The translations under genes were made by a program, and so were the position numbers. From IMG/VR virus record IMGVR_UViG_3300032322_003151, positions 1 through 24,037 of that record: 24,037 bases of DNA. The stretch is one strand, 5' to 3'. How positions within the stretch are numbered: position 1 is the stretch's first letter; every line of letters begins with the position of its first letter. The stretch comes from a virus. Below the pieces are notes generated by a model. That model made no database searches. It worked only from the letters and a program-made list of their open reading frames with translations, and was not told the DNA's origin. Below are positions 6,597 to 16,225 of this stretch, piece by piece.

Positions 6597-8357
6597 ATGA
6601 CTAAAGAACAAGTAATCATAGAGTATAAGAAGTGCATGAAGAGCACTCCTTATGCTCTTAAAACTTATCTTCAAACTTACGATAACACTGTATCGAAGTA
6701 TGTACCTTTGGAATTGTTTCAAGACCAGGTGCAGCTTGTTGAGGATTACGAAGAGTTTAATGAAAACATCGCTCTAAAATATCGTCAAGCGGGTGTTTCT
6801 ACCGTTACTGCTGCATGGGCTAGTAAAAGATTGGCTTTTGCTAGAAAAGAAAAGCCAGAAAAAATCCTTATTATTGCAAACAAACTTGATACTTCTGTTG
6901 AATTTGCAAATAAAATTAGAGGATTCACCGAACAATGGCCCGCATGGGTTGGTATCGGGTTTGCTCCGGAAAAAAACTCAGCAAGACATTTCAAGTTGTC
7001 CAATGGTTGTGAGGTAAAAGCCGTAGCAACTTCACGAGACGCACTTAGAGGTTACACCCCAACGACCTTAATTTTTGATGAGGCTGCCTTTATTGAGGCT
7101 GATAGTGATTTCTGGGCTGCTTGTATGGCATCACTTTCTACTGGTGGTAAGGTAATCGTCATTTCTACTCCAAACGGATTTGACCCGATTTACTATGAGA
7201 TTTATGACCAAGCATTGCGTAATATGAACGATTTCAAAATTACCGAAATGTATTGGTACAGGGACCCCCGCTATACAAAAGACCTATACATGGTAAAAAC
7301 AAATGATATTGTTCATTACCTACTTAACAAACATGAATACACCTCAGATAAAATCATTGATTTGTCTGGGGAAAATAGTAGAGAAAGGCAACTCTCAACT
7401 CTTCACCAGTTTATAAATGACGGTTTCAAACCTTGTTCTTCTTGGTTTGAAAGCATGGTAAAAAAACTCAAATACGAAAGAAGAAAAGTCGCACAAGAAT
7501 TGGAGTGTAACTTTTTGGGTTCAGGTGATAATGTGTTTGATGCGCAAATGCTGCAGGATATCCAGAAAAATGACATTAAAGAACCTGCGGCTAAACTTAT
7601 TGGTGGTCAGCTTTGGATATGGAAAGAGCCAGAAAATGGTCACAAGTATGTTATGGGAGTGGACGTTTCACGAGGAGACTCTGAGGACTTCTCTTGTATT
7701 GAAATTATTGATTTTGATTCTAGGGAGCAAGTTTTAGAGTTTGTTGGTAAACTACCACCTGATACCTTAGCTGAAATTGCATATAAGTGGGGAATTATGT
7801 ATAGTGCTCTTTGTGTGATTGATTTAACGGGAGGTATGGGTGTTGCTACGGCAAGAAAACTGCAGGAATTGGGTTACGAAAATTTCTACTTTGATGGTGT
7901 TGACATGAGCAATAAATGGAAGTATGACCCAAAAATTAAAGAAAAAATTCCAGGAATTAACTTTAACAACAAAAGAGTTCAAATTATTGCCGCTCTTGAA
8001 GAAGCTATTCGTCACGATTTCAAAATTAGGTCAAACAGACTTATGAATGAAATGGGAACTTTTGTATACATCAATGGTAGACCTGACCACCAAAAAGGTC
8101 ACCACGACGATTGTATTATGGCAATATCCATGGCATTATATGTTGCAGAGGCCGCTTTCCCATCATTGGTTAAAGTGGCAAACCATACTAAAGCTATGTT
8201 GAACTCATGGAGTACAGTAGTAAATGAGAATAAAGATAAGTCAGAATATTTTAACCCTGCTCTACCTCAATTTTCACAACCTGGAATGCCAATGAATAAA
8301 AATTATTCATCATCTCGTGCTGATTACGAGAAGTATGGTTGGTTATTCGGTAGGTAA
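6597..8357 (+). CDS. terL: Terminase large subunit (T4 gp17-like)
   Basis: This is the packaging motor protein, with an ATPase that pumps DNA into the prohead and a nuclease that cuts the concatemer. The 586 residues are close to T4 gp17 (610). Residues about 41-50 (FQDQVQLVED) fit the adenine-binding Q motif. R63-QAGVS-T69 is the Walker A-like loop, LIFD161-E162 is Walker B with the catalytic Glu, and IS190-T191-P-N-G is the coupling motif. The RNase H-fold nuclease shows D356 (GVDVSRGDSED), D409 (CVIDLTGG) and D504-D505 (HHDDCIM), matching the expected acidic triad. No intein or frameshift is seen. It starts six bases after the previous stop. Genes 18 and 19, which follow 17 in T4, are missing here. 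Confidence 0.97.
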   Translation: MTKEQVIIEYKKCMKSTPYALKTYLQTYDNTVSKYVPLELFQDQVQLVEDYEEFNENIALKYRQAGVSTVTAAWASKRLAFARKEKPEKILIIANKLDTSVEFANKIRGFTEQWPAWVGIGFAPEKNSARHFKLSNGCEVKAVATSRDALRGYTPTTLIFDEAAFIEADSDFWAACMASLSTGGKVIVISTPNGFDPIYYEIYDQALRNMNDFKITEMYWYRDPRYTKDLYMVKTNDIVHYLLNKHEYTSDKIIDLSGENSRERQLSTLHQFINDGFKPCSSWFESMVKKLKYERRKVAQELECNFLGSGDNVFDAQMLQDIQKNDIKEPAAKLIGGQLWIWKEPENGHKYVMGVDVSRGDSEDFSCIEIIDFDSREQVLEFVGKLPPDTLAEIAYKWGIMYSALCVIDLTGGMGVATARKLQELGYENFYFDGVDMSNKWKYDPKIKEKIPGINFNNKRVQIIAALEEAIRHDFKIRSNRLMNEMGTFVYINGRPDHQKGHHDDCIMAISMALYVAEAAFPSLVKVANHTKAMLNSWSTVVNENKDKSEYFNPALPQFSQPGMPMNKNYSSSRADYEKYGWLFGR

Positions 8358-8398: not shown

Positions 8399-10261
8399 AT
8401 GGAAAATAGAAATCTTACGGTTTGGCAAAGATTATCAAGGGCTTTAGGTCCTGATGCTTTAATGAATCAAGATTTTCCTGTCTACAAATTAGATAAGAAA
8501 GAACTTCTCAGGACTACTGATAAGGCTGAATATGAAAGGGAAAAGCTTCAAGCTAAACAATCTTTTTATTTAGCTAATCAGTTTGCAAAGGTTGAAAATA
8601 ATCTTTATACTCAAGCCATTTATTACGAGCCGAATAGATTGGCTTCATACTATGATTACGAATCTATGGAGTACACTCCAGAGATTTCTGCTGCTTTGGA
8701 CATCTATGCTGAGGAGTCAACCACACCAAACGAAGATGGTATAATTCTTCAAGTTTATTCGGAGTCAAAAAGAATTAAATCGGTATTGGTAGATTTGTTC
8801 AACAATACGTTGGACATCAACACTAATCTTCCTATGTGGACTAGAAACACCTGTAAATACGGTGACAATTTTGTCTACATGAGACTTGACCCGGAAAAAG
8901 GAGTTATTGGATGTCAACAACTCCCAAATATTGAAATTGAAAGATTTGAACAAGGTTTAGCCACACGTAATGCTTCTGTTGGAGTACCTCAAAATCCAGA
9001 TGATAAAGGTTTGAGGTTTACTTGGAAAACTCAAAACATGGAGTTTCAACCTTGGGAGATTGCTCACTTTAGATTGTTAGGTGACGACAGAAAACTTCCA
9101 TATGGAACTTCTATGTTAGAGAAGTCTCGTCGTATTTGGAAACAACTTTTGTTATCTGAAGATGCGATGTTGATTTATCGCACATCTAGAGCACCAGAAA
9201 GACGAATATTCAAAGTTTATGTTGGTAACATGAACGATGATGATGTTGAAGCATACGTACAACGTGTTGCCAACAAATTCAAAAGAGAACAGATTGTAGA
9301 TTCTAAGACAGGTAATGTTGATATGCGTTTCAACCAAATGGCTGTTGACCAGGACTATTTTATTCCTGTACGTGACCCGGCACAACCTAGTCCAATCGAC
9401 ACACTACCAGGCGCTCAGAATCTTTCTGAAATCGCTGATATTGAATATATTCAAAAGAAATTAGTGACTGCTCTTCGAATTCCTAAAGCATTTTTAGGGT
9501 TTGAGGAAGTTGCTGGAGACGGAAAAAATCTAGCCCTTCAGGATATTCGTTTTGCTCGTACAATCAACAGAATTCAAAAGTCTATGATACAAGAACTAAA
9601 CAAAATTGCTATTGTACATTTGTTCTTGTTGGGTTTTGAAGAAGAGATTTCAAACTTCACTTTAGGTCTTACTAACCCATCTACTCAAGCTGATTTGCTT
9701 AAGGTAGACATCTGGAAAGAAAAAGTTTTGTTGTATCGTGATTTGGTTTCTGACCCAGGAAATGGTATCCAACCAACTTCTTCTACTTGGGCTAAAAAGC
9801 ATATTTTCAACTGGTCGGATGATGAAATCAGAACTGACTTGTTGCAACAGAGAATGGAAAGAGCAATTGGTGAGGAACTTAAGAATACTCCAACAGTAAT
9901 TTCCAAGACCGGAATTTTTGACCAGCTTGATACTCTTTATGGTAACAAACCAGGTGAGGGTGCTCCACAAGCACCTCCGGGAGAAGTTAGTGAGCCAGCG
10001 GCAGCCGCATTTGGAGGTGGAGGAGGTATCCCTGATTTAGGAACTGAATTGGGTGGTGAATTAGGTGGTGAAATTCCGGGTGGCGCACCTGAGGCTCCAG
10101 CTCCAGCAGAGGGTGAGGTTACTCCAGAATCCGTTTCCGATAGGGATATGAATATGTTAATTGAAACTGATTTGTATGGCAGTCATTATCTTAATCTGGG
10201 GATTGCTCAACAAAGTTTAGGTAAAATCGAAGAGGAGTTAGACAAGTTGTTAAATTCATAA
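8399..10261 (+). CDS. 20: Portal vertex protein (T4 gp20-like)
   Basis: This forms the dodecameric ring at the packaging vertex, docking the terminase and later the neck and tail. The N-terminus shows the gp20-type segment YYDYESMEYTPEISAALDIY with AEEST, and the core contains WEIAHFRLLG, the helix IEYIQKKLVTALRIPKAFLG and the stem-to-crown region. The protein is 620 residues, longer than T4 gp20 (524). The extra length is largely a Gly/Ala/Pro-rich linker at about residues 520-572 (GGGGGIPDLGTELGG and following) before a final helical segment (MNMLIETDLYGSHYLNLG). That linker is likely flexible and is not seen in T4. No Shine-Dalgarno sequence precedes the ATG. The call is secure from sequence and from its position after terminase. 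Confidence 0.95.
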   Translation: MENRNLTVWQRLSRALGPDALMNQDFPVYKLDKKELLRTTDKAEYEREKLQAKQSFYLANQFAKVENNLYTQAIYYEPNRLASYYDYESMEYTPEISAALDIYAEESTTPNEDGIILQVYSESKRIKSVLVDLFNNTLDINTNLPMWTRNTCKYGDNFVYMRLDPEKGVIGCQQLPNIEIERFEQGLATRNASVGVPQNPDDKGLRFTWKTQNMEFQPWEIAHFRLLGDDRKLPYGTSMLEKSRRIWKQLLLSEDAMLIYRTSRAPERRIFKVYVGNMNDDDVEAYVQRVANKFKREQIVDSKTGNVDMRFNQMAVDQDYFIPVRDPAQPSPIDTLPGAQNLSEIADIEYIQKKLVTALRIPKAFLGFEEVAGDGKNLALQDIRFARTINRIQKSMIQELNKIAIVHLFLLGFEEEISNFTLGLTNPSTQADLLKVDIWKEKVLLYRDLVSDPGNGIQPTSSTWAKKHIFNWSDDEIRTDLLQQRMERAIGEELKNTPTVISKTGIFDQLDTLYGNKPGEGAPQAPPGEVSEPAAAAFGGGGGIPDLGTELGGELGGEIPGGAPEAPAPAEGEVTPESVSDRDMNMLIETDLYGSHYLNLGIAQQSLGKIEEELDKLLNS

Positions 10262-10269: not shown

Positions 10270-10288
10270 AGTGAATAATAACGACCTC

Positions 10289-10996
10289 ATGACTTTCGGA
10301 CAAATTAAATCCATCATCGAAAAAAACCTAGTAGAATCTTACAGGGATACTTCTACGTTCAAAAAAACTCTCAAGGAGTTCAAACATAATATTTTAACAA
10401 ATAAATCTTTTTCAAAGATTTATTCAATTTATGATGACCTTTCAAGTCCTCAAAACTTGACTGAAACCGAAGCAAAAGAATTCCTCGAAGAAGCCGTTAA
10501 TGTTATTAGACATTTATTAGAAAAAACTAACTTACCAAAAAATGGTGAGAAATCTAGCAACATTTATGAAGACATTGATAATGTTGTTTATTTCAACAAA
10601 GTAGATATCAAAGAGCGACTGAACTCCAAGAAAAATATTATTTCCAAATTGATGGAAAGCAAGGGTCAAACAAATGAAAGTGTTAAGATTCCTTTGAAAT
10701 CAATGGTTTCGATTGCTAATCAAACAATCTCAAAATATGTTGAAAATTTGGATGAGAATTCAAGAAAAGAAATTTTCCATATCTTAGCTAAAAGCACATC
10801 AGACTTGGAAAACGAGTTTGGTGACCTTAAAGAGTCAGCTGTAAACAAACTTAAAGTTTTATCAAGCAAAGAAAGTGATGTTGAATTGAAGTCCAAAATT
10901 AGTGAAACAATTTCTAAAATTGAAGCTGAAAAATACGACCAAATCAGTTACGTTAGACTCAAGAAATTAGAAGAATCTATTGTTCTTGATTTTTGA
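10289..10996 (+). CDS. Helical protein between portal and protease, possible prohead core protein
   Basis: This 235-residue, mostly helical Lys/Glu/Ser-rich protein begins MTFGQIKSIIEKNLVESYRD. A GTG six codons upstream (10271) would add MNNNDL but is less likely. It has no recognisable enzyme motif. In T4 the space between genes 20 and 21 holds the small prohead core proteins 67 and 68, so a core or assembly-factor role is a positional inference only. Its N-terminal amphipathic helix with LVE|S resembles the leader plus (L/I)xE pattern that T4 uses for capsid targeting and cleavage. The last 20 bases overlap, in antisense, the end of the bS21 gene. Confidence 0.7.
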   Translation: MTFGQIKSIIEKNLVESYRDTSTFKKTLKEFKHNILTNKSFSKIYSIYDDLSSPQNLTETEAKEFLEEAVNVIRHLLEKTNLPKNGEKSSNIYEDIDNVVYFNKVDIKERLNSKKNIISKLMESKGQTNESVKIPLKSMVSIANQTISKYVENLDENSRKEIFHILAKSTSDLENEFGDLKESAVNKLKVLSSKESDVELKSKISETISKIEAEKYDQISYVRLKKLEESIVLDF

Positions 10997-11162
10997 GTTG
11001 TTGAACGTATTTTGCTTTAATTTTTGTATTTCTTTTTTGAACTGATTTTTTCACAAACTCTTTTCTTGAGTTTAACTTTTGGTTCTGTCTAGTCTTAATC
11101 ACCTTAGACTTCAATATCTTCAAAGCCTTTTCGATGTTTTGGTTTACTTGAACTATCAGCAT
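10977..11162 (-). CDS. rpsU: Ribosomal protein bS21 homologue encoded by the phage
   Basis: This 61-residue, strongly basic protein lies on the strand opposite to the head genes. It starts MLIVQVN, then IEKALKILKSKVIKT, then R33-K-E-F with a following SVQKRNTKIKA and K-Y52-V-Q-Q-L. This follows the bS21 pattern in order: N-terminal beta strand, two Lys/Arg-rich helices, and an R-x-E-F-x-x-x-[PS] turn. bS21 sits on the 30S platform beside the anti-Shine-Dalgarno end of 16S rRNA and affects initiation. Phage-encoded bS21 is known from cultured and metagenomic phages. Tyr52 seems to align with the Tyr that helps occlude the anti-Shine-Dalgarno sequence in Flavobacterium. Its own leader has no Shine-Dalgarno sequence. 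It is convergent with the upstream gene, overlapping by 20 bases, and divergent from the gene at 11239. Confidence 0.85.
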   Translation of the reverse strand: MLIVQVNQNIEKALKILKSKVIKTRQNQKLNSRKEFVKKSVQKRNTKIKAKYVQQLKNQEQ

Positions 11163-11238
11163 ATAATAGAAATATTTGGAATTGTTGAAAAGTTTCTTAT
11201 TTTTTCATAAAAATAAACGATATTCAACTCATATATTA

Positions 11239-11691
11239 ATGAAAAAAGGTAAGACGGTTAAGTTAAACCAATACGAATCATTAAAAACATCCTACGGAAC
11301 AGTCGATTCAAAAAACCTTAAGTCTTTATACATAAACCTGCAAACTTGGGTTTGTCCTCATAAAGAATCTGACAACTGGGAAAGAGTAGTCGGTAATTTA
11401 TCAAGAAAAATTAAGCACTCAGTATTTGAAAGTATTAATACCGAATATTTCTCTGAAAAATTCATAGTAGACTTGGATTTGAGAACTAGTGGTATACAAC
11501 TTAACAAAAAATCTTTTATGAACCTTGAAATCAATCTCTATACAAAAACAGAATTAGATTTCAAAGGTTCACAAGTGAAAGAAGCTATCAAGAAAATTAT
11601 CAAAGAAATTTACCGGGATTGTATAATTAAAAACGATTATTTTACATTTAGTTCCAGTAAAGAAAAATCAAAAATAAAAACAATCAATTAG
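11239..11691 (+). CDS. Conserved unknown protein, 150 residues
   Basis: The ATG at 11239 is preferred to a TTG at 11176, because the shorter form leaves 76 bases for divergent promoters between it and bS21 and starts with a normal basic N-terminus (MKKGKTVKLNQYESLK). The protein is alpha/beta, with LQTWVCPHKESDNWERVV, then FIVDLDLRTSGIQLNKKSF and a beta strand (NLEINLYTKT), and a basic helical end (VKEAIKKIIKEIY). I recognise no named family, catalytic motif, signal peptide or membrane segment. Its place between gp20- and gp21-like genes suggests head assembly, but nothing in the sequence proves it. Confidence 0.65.
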   Translation: MKKGKTVKLNQYESLKTSYGTVDSKNLKSLYINLQTWVCPHKESDNWERVVGNLSRKIKHSVFESINTEYFSEKFIVDLDLRTSGIQLNKKSFMNLEINLYTKTELDFKGSQVKEAIKKIIKEIYRDCIIKNDYFTFSSSKEKSKIKTIN

Positions 11692-11718: not shown

Positions 11719-12435
11719 ATGAAAGATTTACCTATATTAGGTCCTAGAGACAGTGGAAAAGGTATCCTTATTGAAATGGATGCTGGATATGTTTCACCAA
11801 CAGACCGTTTAAATGAAGCCGTCCTATCTGAGCGTAAAGATATAGATTATAGAAATCCTTTTGAATTCTATGCTGTTTTACAGAAGTATGGTGTACCTAA
11901 CCGAAATGGTAGAGTTTATCCTGAGAGAATACTTAAGCGTGAAGCTGACAGATATAAGTCAGCAATCAAAAAAGGATTATCAACTTCGGAATTAAACCAC
12001 CCAGAATCATCCTTAATTGACCTTGATAGAGTTTCTCACATCATCACCGATATCTGGTGGGATGGAAATATTCTAATGGGCAAATTGAAGTTATTGACAT
12101 CTCCTGGATTTCATGAAAGTGGAATCGTTTCAACAAAAGGAGATATTGCAGCAAACTTAATGAGACAAGGTGTAACCATGGGAGTTTCTTCTCGTGGGGT
12201 TGGCTCTTTGAAAAAAGTTGGCGAGCAAAATGAAGTTCAAGATGATTTCGAATTAATTTGTTTTGACCTTGTATCATCACCCTCAACCCCTGGTGCTTAC
12301 CTATTTGGAAGCCCAGAGGAGAGAAGTATGTACGAAGAAAACCTCGAAGAAGAAAAAAAACAAAAAATTTCTGACTCAGGAATGGGTAAGTCAGTTGATT
12401 TAATGAAAAAATTAACCGATTATTTAAATCGTTAA
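11719..12435 (+). CDS. 21: Prohead maturation protease (T4 gp21-like)
   Basis: This is a serine protease that is built into the prohead core and, after assembly, cleaves scaffold and capsid proteins after (L/I)xE. At 238 residues it is close to T4 gp21 (212). Conserved features in order are FYAVLQKYGVPNRNGRVYP, SELNH94P with the catalytic His, GVSSRG with S157/S158 as candidate nucleophile, and CFD183LVSSPSTPGAY. These are the hallmarks of the gp21 group, which shares a fold with herpesvirus assemblin. The C-terminal 35 residues are charged and helical. Position directly upstream of the scaffold and capsid genes, separated by one small gene, agrees with T4 order. Its leader carries the TATTTAT element but no clear Shine-Dalgarno sequence. 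Confidence 0.93.
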   Translation: MKDLPILGPRDSGKGILIEMDAGYVSPTDRLNEAVLSERKDIDYRNPFEFYAVLQKYGVPNRNGRVYPERILKREADRYKSAIKKGLSTSELNHPESSLIDLDRVSHIITDIWWDGNILMGKLKLLTSPGFHESGIVSTKGDIAANLMRQGVTMGVSSRGVGSLKKVGEQNEVQDDFELICFDLVSSPSTPGAYLFGSPEERSMYEENLEEEKKQKISDSGMGKSVDLMKKLTDYLNR

Positions 12436-14392: not shown

Positions 14393-16225
14393 ATGGGAGC
14401 ATTATTAGAAAGTGGTCTTGTTGGTAACATCGGTCTTAAGCACCTTAAAGTTATCAAAGAAGATACAATCAACAAATGGGACAAGTTAGGTTTCCTCGAT
14501 GGACTTAACGGTCACCTTAAAGAGAATATCGCGCAGTTGTATGAAAACCAAGCGTCTTATTTGATTAACGAAGCAGCATCAACTGCTGATACCGGTTCAT
14601 TCGAAACTGTTGTATTTCCAATCGTAAGAAGAGTTTTCTCTAAGCTTTTGGCTAACGACATCGTTTCTGTACAAGCGATGAACCTTCCTATCGGTAAGTT
14701 GTTCTACTTTGTACCTAACATTCAGTCGTACCAACCAACGGCATTCAACGAGCACTATGCACCTTACGGAGCACCAAATGCAAATGCTGACCAAACTCCA
14801 AACTCTGGTTATGACTACGATAACACTAGAGACCTTTACGATAGATTCTACGAAGGTAACGAACCTGCTTTGGACCCTCCAGGTCTTTACGACTACTCTA
14901 AAGGTTCATTTTCTGCAATCACTCCAGGTGTTACAATTGGTGAAACTGGTTCAGCGATTGCTGGTGGTGTAAAAACGGTTGCATGGACTGGAGATTCTCT
15001 TGTAGCAACTGCATACACTTTGGGTAACTACAGAAAGGTTTTACTTGAATTGACAGGTTTCCAACCTGCAGGTGCTGGTCAACTTATCGGTCCTAACGGT
15101 AACCCTATGGATACTGAAGAATTCTTGACTGACCTTCAAATCCGTGGAGTTGCGACAAACTGGTATACTTCAGCAAACACATCAAATAACTACTTGTTCA
15201 GAGTTGTAACTCAGAAATACGGTAAAGGGATTGTTCAGTATGGTACTAATGAATCTTTAGCATTCCCACAAAGTAGAACTGGTGGTGGCGTTTACAACGA
15301 TGTTTGTGATGTTGACGGTAAAATTTACTTAGAAGTTGATTTACAAGTTCCTGTTTGTATCTCTTGTGGTGATTCATCACTTGACGGATACACTGGTTCA
15401 ACATTCTCTTCTTCAACAGCAACCAACAACGCATTCTTGGCAACATACAGAATTTACAAGAATCTTGAATTTGAAGATAAAATTGGTGAAGTTTCTTTTG
15501 ACCTTCAGTCTGTGACTGTTTCGGTTACCGAAAGAAAACTTAGAGCTCAATGGTCTCCAGAAATGGCGCAAGACGTTGCAGCATTCCACAACATTGACGC
15601 TGAAGCTGAATTAACAGCTTTGTTGTCTGAGCAAGTGGCTGCTGAAATTGACCGCGAAATTTTGAGAGATTTGAGAAAAGCTGCATCTTGGAACCTTCGT
15701 TGGGATTACAACGGATGGAAGAGATTCAACTCTGGTACTACTCCTTACACTCAAAAGGACTGGAACCAAACTCTTATCACTGCAATCAACCAAATCTCAG
15801 CTCAAATCCACAAATCAACTTTGAGAGGTGGAGCAAACTGGATTGTTGTATCTTCTGAGGTATCTGCTATCTTCGACGACTTGGAGTACTTCCACGTGTC
15901 TAACGCAGCTCCTGAGCAAGACCAATACAACATGGGTATTGAAAGAGTTGGAACATTGGCTGGTAGATACCAAGTTTACCGTGACCCTTACTTCCCTGCA
16001 AACCAAGTATTGTTGGGACACAAAGGTACATCGTTGCTTGACACTGGTTACATCTACGCACCATACGTACCATTGCAACTTACTCCAACAATGTATAACC
16101 CATTCAACTTTACACCTATCAAGGGTATCATGACTAGATACGCTAAGAAGGTTGTAAACAACCGTTTCTACGGTCGTATCACAGTTGATGGTGTTAGAAC
16201 ATTCGACTTGAGAGAATTGAGATAA
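14393..16225 (+). CDS. 23: Major capsid protein (T4 gp23-like)
   Basis: This is the hexamer-forming shell protein of the head, with 610 residues against 521 in T4. Diagnostic stretches are WDKLGFLDGLNGHLKENIAQ, LYENQASYLINEA, FETVVFPIVRRVFSKLLAND, VSVQAMNLPIGKLFYFVP, SFDLQSVTVSVTERKLRAQW, SPEMAQDVAAFHNIDAEAEL and the C-terminal MTRYAKKVVNNRFYGRITVD. L57-I-N-E60|A61 fits the (L/I)xE cleavage rule of the prohead protease and lies close to the T4 cut after residue 65, so the mature shell protein probably starts at A61. Extra length lies mainly between residues about 120 and 345, an insertion-domain region, and includes C322-I-S-C325-G-D327. A-rich leader, followed by a terminator. Confidence 0.97.
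   Translation: MGALLESGLVGNIGLKHLKVIKEDTINKWDKLGFLDGLNGHLKENIAQLYENQASYLINEAASTADTGSFETVVFPIVRRVFSKLLANDIVSVQAMNLPIGKLFYFVPNIQSYQPTAFNEHYAPYGAPNANADQTPNSGYDYDNTRDLYDRFYEGNEPALDPPGLYDYSKGSFSAITPGVTIGETGSAIAGGVKTVAWTGDSLVATAYTLGNYRKVLLELTGFQPAGAGQLIGPNGNPMDTEEFLTDLQIRGVATNWYTSANTSNNYLFRVVTQKYGKGIVQYGTNESLAFPQSRTGGGVYNDVCDVDGKIYLEVDLQVPVCISCGDSSLDGYTGSTFSSSTATNNAFLATYRIYKNLEFEDKIGEVSFDLQSVTVSVTERKLRAQWSPEMAQDVAAFHNIDAEAELTALLSEQVAAEIDREILRDLRKAASWNLRWDYNGWKRFNSGTTPYTQKDWNQTLITAINQISAQIHKSTLRGGANWIVVSSEVSAIFDDLEYFHVSNAAPEQDQYNMGIERVGTLAGRYQVYRDPYFPANQVLLGHKGTSLLDTGYIYAPYVPLQLTPTMYNPFNFTPIKGIMTRYAKKVVNNRFYGRITVDGVRTFDLRELR

Follow-up and report, generated by a model that had tools for sequence, protein, structure and literature searches.

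An antisense bS21 gene among the head genes of a phage, without the autoregulatory leader of most of its plausible hosts

Results

The bS21 gene lies antisense in a T4-type head region

The window, by which we mean the whole stretch of viral DNA that was analysed (24,037 nucleotides; IMG/VR record IMGVR_UViG_3300032322_003151), contains a head region with a T4-type terminase large subunit gene (6597..8357, plus strand; PF03237, phrog_2) and a gp20-type portal gene (8399..10261, plus strand; PF07230, E 8e-77), followed by a gene of conserved position for a 241-residue protein to which no function was assigned (10271..10996, plus strand). On the minus strand, at 10977..11162, an ATG-initiated open reading frame encodes a 61-residue protein rich in lysine and arginine. 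The 3′ end of the 241-residue gene runs into it tail to tail by exactly 20 bp (10977-10996). A 76-bp divergent intergenic region (11163..11238), aligned across relatives and showing no Shine-Dalgarno (SD) sequence before the bS21 gene, separates it from a plus-strand gene for a 150-residue protein (11239..11691), beyond which lie genes for a prohead protease of family S77 (11719..12435, plus strand; PF03420, E 1e-24) and the major capsid protein (MCP) Gp23 (14393..16225, plus strand; PF07068, E 8e-74). The 150-residue neighbour adjoins bS21 in nearly all loci and gave no significant Pfam or PHROG family; from its position, rather than by sequence comparison, it is the putative equivalent of fam498 (bS21_CN) of Chen et al. 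(2022, PMC9723584). Elsewhere in the window, a gene product encoded at 2069-2875 carries a long Thr/Pro-rich repeat (TPTPT...) and has no assigned function.

The original prediction, made from the letters alone, had placed a basic bS21 of 61 residues antisense among head genes, with a 20-base overlap; its coordinates and length were correct, the minus-strand position between plus-strand T4-type flanks holds, and the profile search against the bS21 family bears out the identification. Residues 4-54 match Pfam Ribosomal_S21 (PF01165) with 33.7 bits (E 3e-8), above the family cut-off of 27. The NCBIfam equivalog TIGR00030 gave 22.6 bits, below its cut-off of 28.95, which argues for a divergent member of the family; judged by these profiles, the protein belongs to PF01165 and does not reach the level of an equivalog to host bS21. 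The closest solved structure is bS21 in the Flavobacterium johnsoniae ribosome 7JIL (Chen et al., 2022, PMC9723584), with E 1.2e-6 and, among the PDB matches, 32 bits compared with at most 16 for other phyla. The two proteins are of the same family, that of the window being two residues shorter in the N-terminal turn, and Tyr52 pairs with F. johnsoniae Tyr54 in the alignment, as had been predicted. An AlphaFold2 model built with 18 phage sequences consists of a single uninterrupted helix over residues 10-60 (pLDDT 90.8, pTM 0.52); Foldseek returned no PDB match for this helix, and the model gives no information on docking at the 16S 3′ end.

Viral contigs were scanned with the bS21 protein, which returned 73 loci, and with the portal protein, which returned 80; the latter set is unbiased toward bS21 because it was retrieved via the portal. 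The order terminase (TerL), portal, 241-residue gene, antisense bS21, 150-residue gene, protease, scaffold, MCP was found in nearly all loci, within the reach of the contigs. Complete bS21 homologues were present at 143 loci (89 distinct proteins), and the median dN/dS among 14 close relatives was about 0.09, taken over the 56 pairs for which dS could be computed and with synonymous sites near saturation. The reading frame is therefore more than a chance one, and the gene is under strong purifying selection. Two loci of the portal-derived set, L135 (6830-6972) and L148 (10569-10710), keep both neighbours around a gap of about 140 bp with no bS21 between them, and a family search of these contigs, which are fragments, found no bS21 elsewhere. 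Hence bS21 appears dispensable in some relatives, and the divergent 150-residue neighbour is not strictly tied to it. A 62% identical bS21 was also seen on a 46-kb viral contig (L036) with no TerL, portal, protease or MCP neighbours in the DNA examined, a different phage context.

The phage protein is of the Tyr54 type with an N-terminal helix of its own

The 89 distinct phage proteins were compared with 147 bS21 proteins from Bacteroidota hosts. Position 52 is aromatic in every phage protein (Y 84%, H 10%, F 6%). About half of the sampled hosts carry Arg at the Tyr54 position, so that Tyr is not universal in Bacteroidota. Against host profiles, the window protein scored 51.6 bits with the Tyr type and 26.8 with the non-aromatic type. 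The Tyr-type profile was the better match for each of the 89 phage proteins, which supports assignment of the window protein to the Tyr54 (Bacteroidia) type as far as profile scores can tell. One host rpsU in the collection comes from a metagenome-assembled genome titled Rhizobium sp. (L216) but shares 89% identity with the Flavobacterium gene; the bin is probably mislabelled or contaminated.

The N-terminal helix of the window protein, LKSKVIKTRQNQ, is phage-specific. Residues 15-30 (consensus K[T/I]LKSKVIKTKQNQ-L) hardly vary among the phages, with nearly fixed differences from hosts at Leu17, Ser19, Val21, Ile22, Lys/Arg25 and Gln26, and the identity of phage bS21 to any host copy compared was at most 49%. 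A genome scan with a single phage pattern, ALK[IT]LK[SGR]KV, matched 65 stretches, none of them in a bS21, and revealed no bacterial relative; limited as it is to one pattern, this result agrees with a phage-specific helix. In a tree restricted to Bacteroidota hosts, a branch with SH-aLRT 100 sets the phages on one side and all 147 hosts on the other. The donor is not identified by this tree, because it rests on few columns (64) and Bacteroidota is the sole host phylum included.

The phage bS21 leader lacks an extended Shine-Dalgarno sequence

Duplex energies were calculated between the last 30 nt before each start and the 16S 3′ tail GGAUCACCUCCUUUCU, which was assumed to be common to all rather than read for each host. 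The leader of the window bS21 gave -3.6 kcal/mol, far from the extended SD of autoregulated rpsU (about -13 kcal/mol or stronger). Phage bS21 leaders as a group had a median of -2.0 kcal/mol, none of 77 reaching -10, and a median z of 0.09 relative to shuffled sequences of identical composition. In Flavobacterium-type hosts the rpsU leaders had a median of -22.0 kcal/mol, with 28 of 28 at or below -10. Across the phylum sample this level was reached by 23 of 35 Tyr-type rpsU leaders (about two thirds) and by 53 of 75 of the other type. Thus the phage bS21 gene is without the autoregulatory leader of most of its plausible hosts. A host-side parallel to the phage gene was seen in two Bacteroidota genomes that each carry a pair of bS21 genes (G106, L314 and L343; G121, L290 and L323), one member of the pair having an extended-SD leader and the other a weak SD or none.

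The other gene starts examined in the window had a median of -3.3 kcal/mol, and only one of 25 starts, a doubtful TTG, fell below -10, in keeping with the earlier claim that most phage messages lack SD sequences. Since genes of Bacteroidota and of phages lack SDs by default, the missing SD before phage bS21 need not have been selected.

A TATTTNT element precedes bS21, portal and protease genes

A TATTTCT element, a putative phage late-promoter or initiation element, lies just upstream of the bS21 start (11168..11174, minus strand). Within 40 nt upstream of bS21, TATTTNT was found in 85% of 79 distinct loci, compared with 15% in single-base shuffles, and upstream of other genes in 95% of 64 (portal), 100% of 63 (protease), 8% (TerL) and 0% (MCP); these counts come from related loci and are not independent. 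The recurrence of the element before non-homologous genes is a stronger argument than the counts themselves. The window contains 8 copies of ATATTTAT, where 1.8 would be expected; they lie on both strands between 2013 and 20134, several of them shortly before gene starts, and may represent a late promoter or an initiation signal in this group of phages. Identity of TATTTNT with the T4 late promoter was considered and dropped, the T4 promoter TATAAATA being its reverse complement.

From the opposite strand of bS21, a timing unlike that of the late head genes had been proposed. This runs against published RNA data, in which phage bS21 is transcribed together with the late structural genes (Chen et al., 2022, PMC9723584), and against the motif shared with portal and protease, and we have abandoned it. 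The shared element would lend indirect support to expression of bS21 with the late structural genes.

In the divergent region and its relatives (11163-11238 in the window) there is a conserved imperfect inverted repeat, GTTTATTTT ... AAAATAA(C); many relatives also have a GTCAAAA block upstream of bS21. The repeat and the block may possibly reflect shared control of the divergent pair formed by bS21 and its neighbour.

Discussion

The finding must be counted as known in its main outline, because Chen et al. (2022, PMC9723584) report exactly the same locus: a reverse-strand bS21 among TerL, portal, protease and MCP genes in five clades of Bacteroidetes myophages, with conserved neighbours, an aromatic residue at Tyr54 and a divergent N-terminal helix. 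Replacement of host bS21 in ribosomes was proposed in the same study, so that both the antisense arrangement and the idea of substitution were already published in 2022. The window, from a lake-type virus of Bacteroidota, adds a further example. Its bS21 resembles those of clades a-e in standing on the reverse strand between two hypothetical genes of the TerL-portal-protease-MCP region, in its Bacteroidota type and Tyr54 equivalent, and in its divergent N-terminal helix, and we found no difference in kind.

What can be added concerns the leader. In F. johnsoniae, ribosomes free of bS21 prefer rpsU through its extended SD, which results in autoregulation, and loss of bS21 or mutation of Tyr54 frees SD recognition (McNutt et al., 2023, PMC9976891). 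With the family and the aligned Tyr in common, phage and host genes differ in the leader (-3.6 kcal/mol against about -19 to -25 for Flavobacterium-type rpsU) and in residues of the N-terminal helix. Since its leader carries no extended SD, the phage gene should escape host autoregulation, and its product should help to keep host rpsU off. Whether this argument applies would vary with the host, because 12 of the 35 Tyr-type rpsU leaders in the phylum sample are also without a strong SD. Chen et al. (PMC9723584) mention neither autoregulation nor promoters, and among open-licence papers we found none on phage bS21 escaping rpsU autoregulation; the leader difference, a modest addition, is the only one made here.

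We consider it probable, at roughly two chances in three, that a late phage paralogue of bS21 fills the host 30S site and keeps the ribosome in its SD-blind state while standing outside the rpsU feedback. A Bacteroidota myophage would make this paralogue late, along with its head proteins, and the protein would take the place of bS21 on the platform of the host 30S subunit. Through its C-terminal half, which includes Tyr52, it would preserve a host-like contact that holds the anti-SD tail out of the way, and the ribosomes would stay SD-blind, as the SD-less late mRNAs of the phage would need. Host rpsU, with its extended SD, would be translatable mainly by bS21-free ribosomes; the phage message, having none, would be read by ordinary ribosomes outside the feedback loop, and ribosomes filled with phage bS21 would keep host rpsU repressed. 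More tentatively, the phage gene may serve as a feedback-proof copy: having no extended SD and retaining anti-SD occlusion, it would provide late bS21 independently of the host circuit, shut off host rpsU through that very circuit and replace host bS21 without any protease.

Chen et al. and the original prediction laid their emphasis on a specialised ribosome, in which the altered N-terminal helix shifts mRNA selection toward phage messages. The near fixation of residues 15-30 in phages, unlike hosts, speaks for this, as does the mapping of the divergence to the helix near the mRNA path (PMC9723584). However, we identified no feature of the phage mRNAs that such a helix could read, the phage genes have a common SD-less type of leader, and evasion of host factors could likewise make the helix diverge; we regard a shift in selection as rather doubtful. 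The opposite effect on the anti-SD, namely that phage bS21 displaces the host protein and frees the anti-SD for SD-bearing phage messages, could draw on the freed SD recognition in F. johnsoniae lacking bS21 or its Tyr54 (PMC9976891). It is disfavoured because the aromatic residue is kept in phage bS21 and the phage genes are SD-less, as the start energies given above indicate, and is the least credible account that we weighed.

A role away from the ribosome and without stable binding to it, for example as an RNA-binding protein, a basic protein packaged in the virion or a decoy, would suit both the basic charge, fit for nucleic-acid binding, and the constant position of bS21 among head genes, and packaging in virions was raised by Chen et al. 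(PMC9723584). Conservation of the ribosome-contacting C-terminal half and of the aromatic residue makes it very improbable. Furthermore, Mizuno et al. (2019, PMC6375957), as cited by later authors, reported that the bS21 of another phage entered E. coli 70S ribosomes. The bS21 of Pelagibacter phage HTVC008M, tested in that work for incorporation into E. coli ribosomes, is likewise phage-encoded but belongs to a different host phylum.

Among viral ribosomal proteins, phage bS21 is the most common, and it is a candidate for making ribosomes specialised by a phage; where rpsU of Bacteroidota is autoregulated through an extended SD, that the phage copy stands outside the loop is a testable statement. 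McNutt et al. (PMC9976891) suggested that autoregulation lets the host recover from displacement of its bS21; such recovery would be weakened by a phage copy that has no SD of its own yet keeps the anti-SD hidden.
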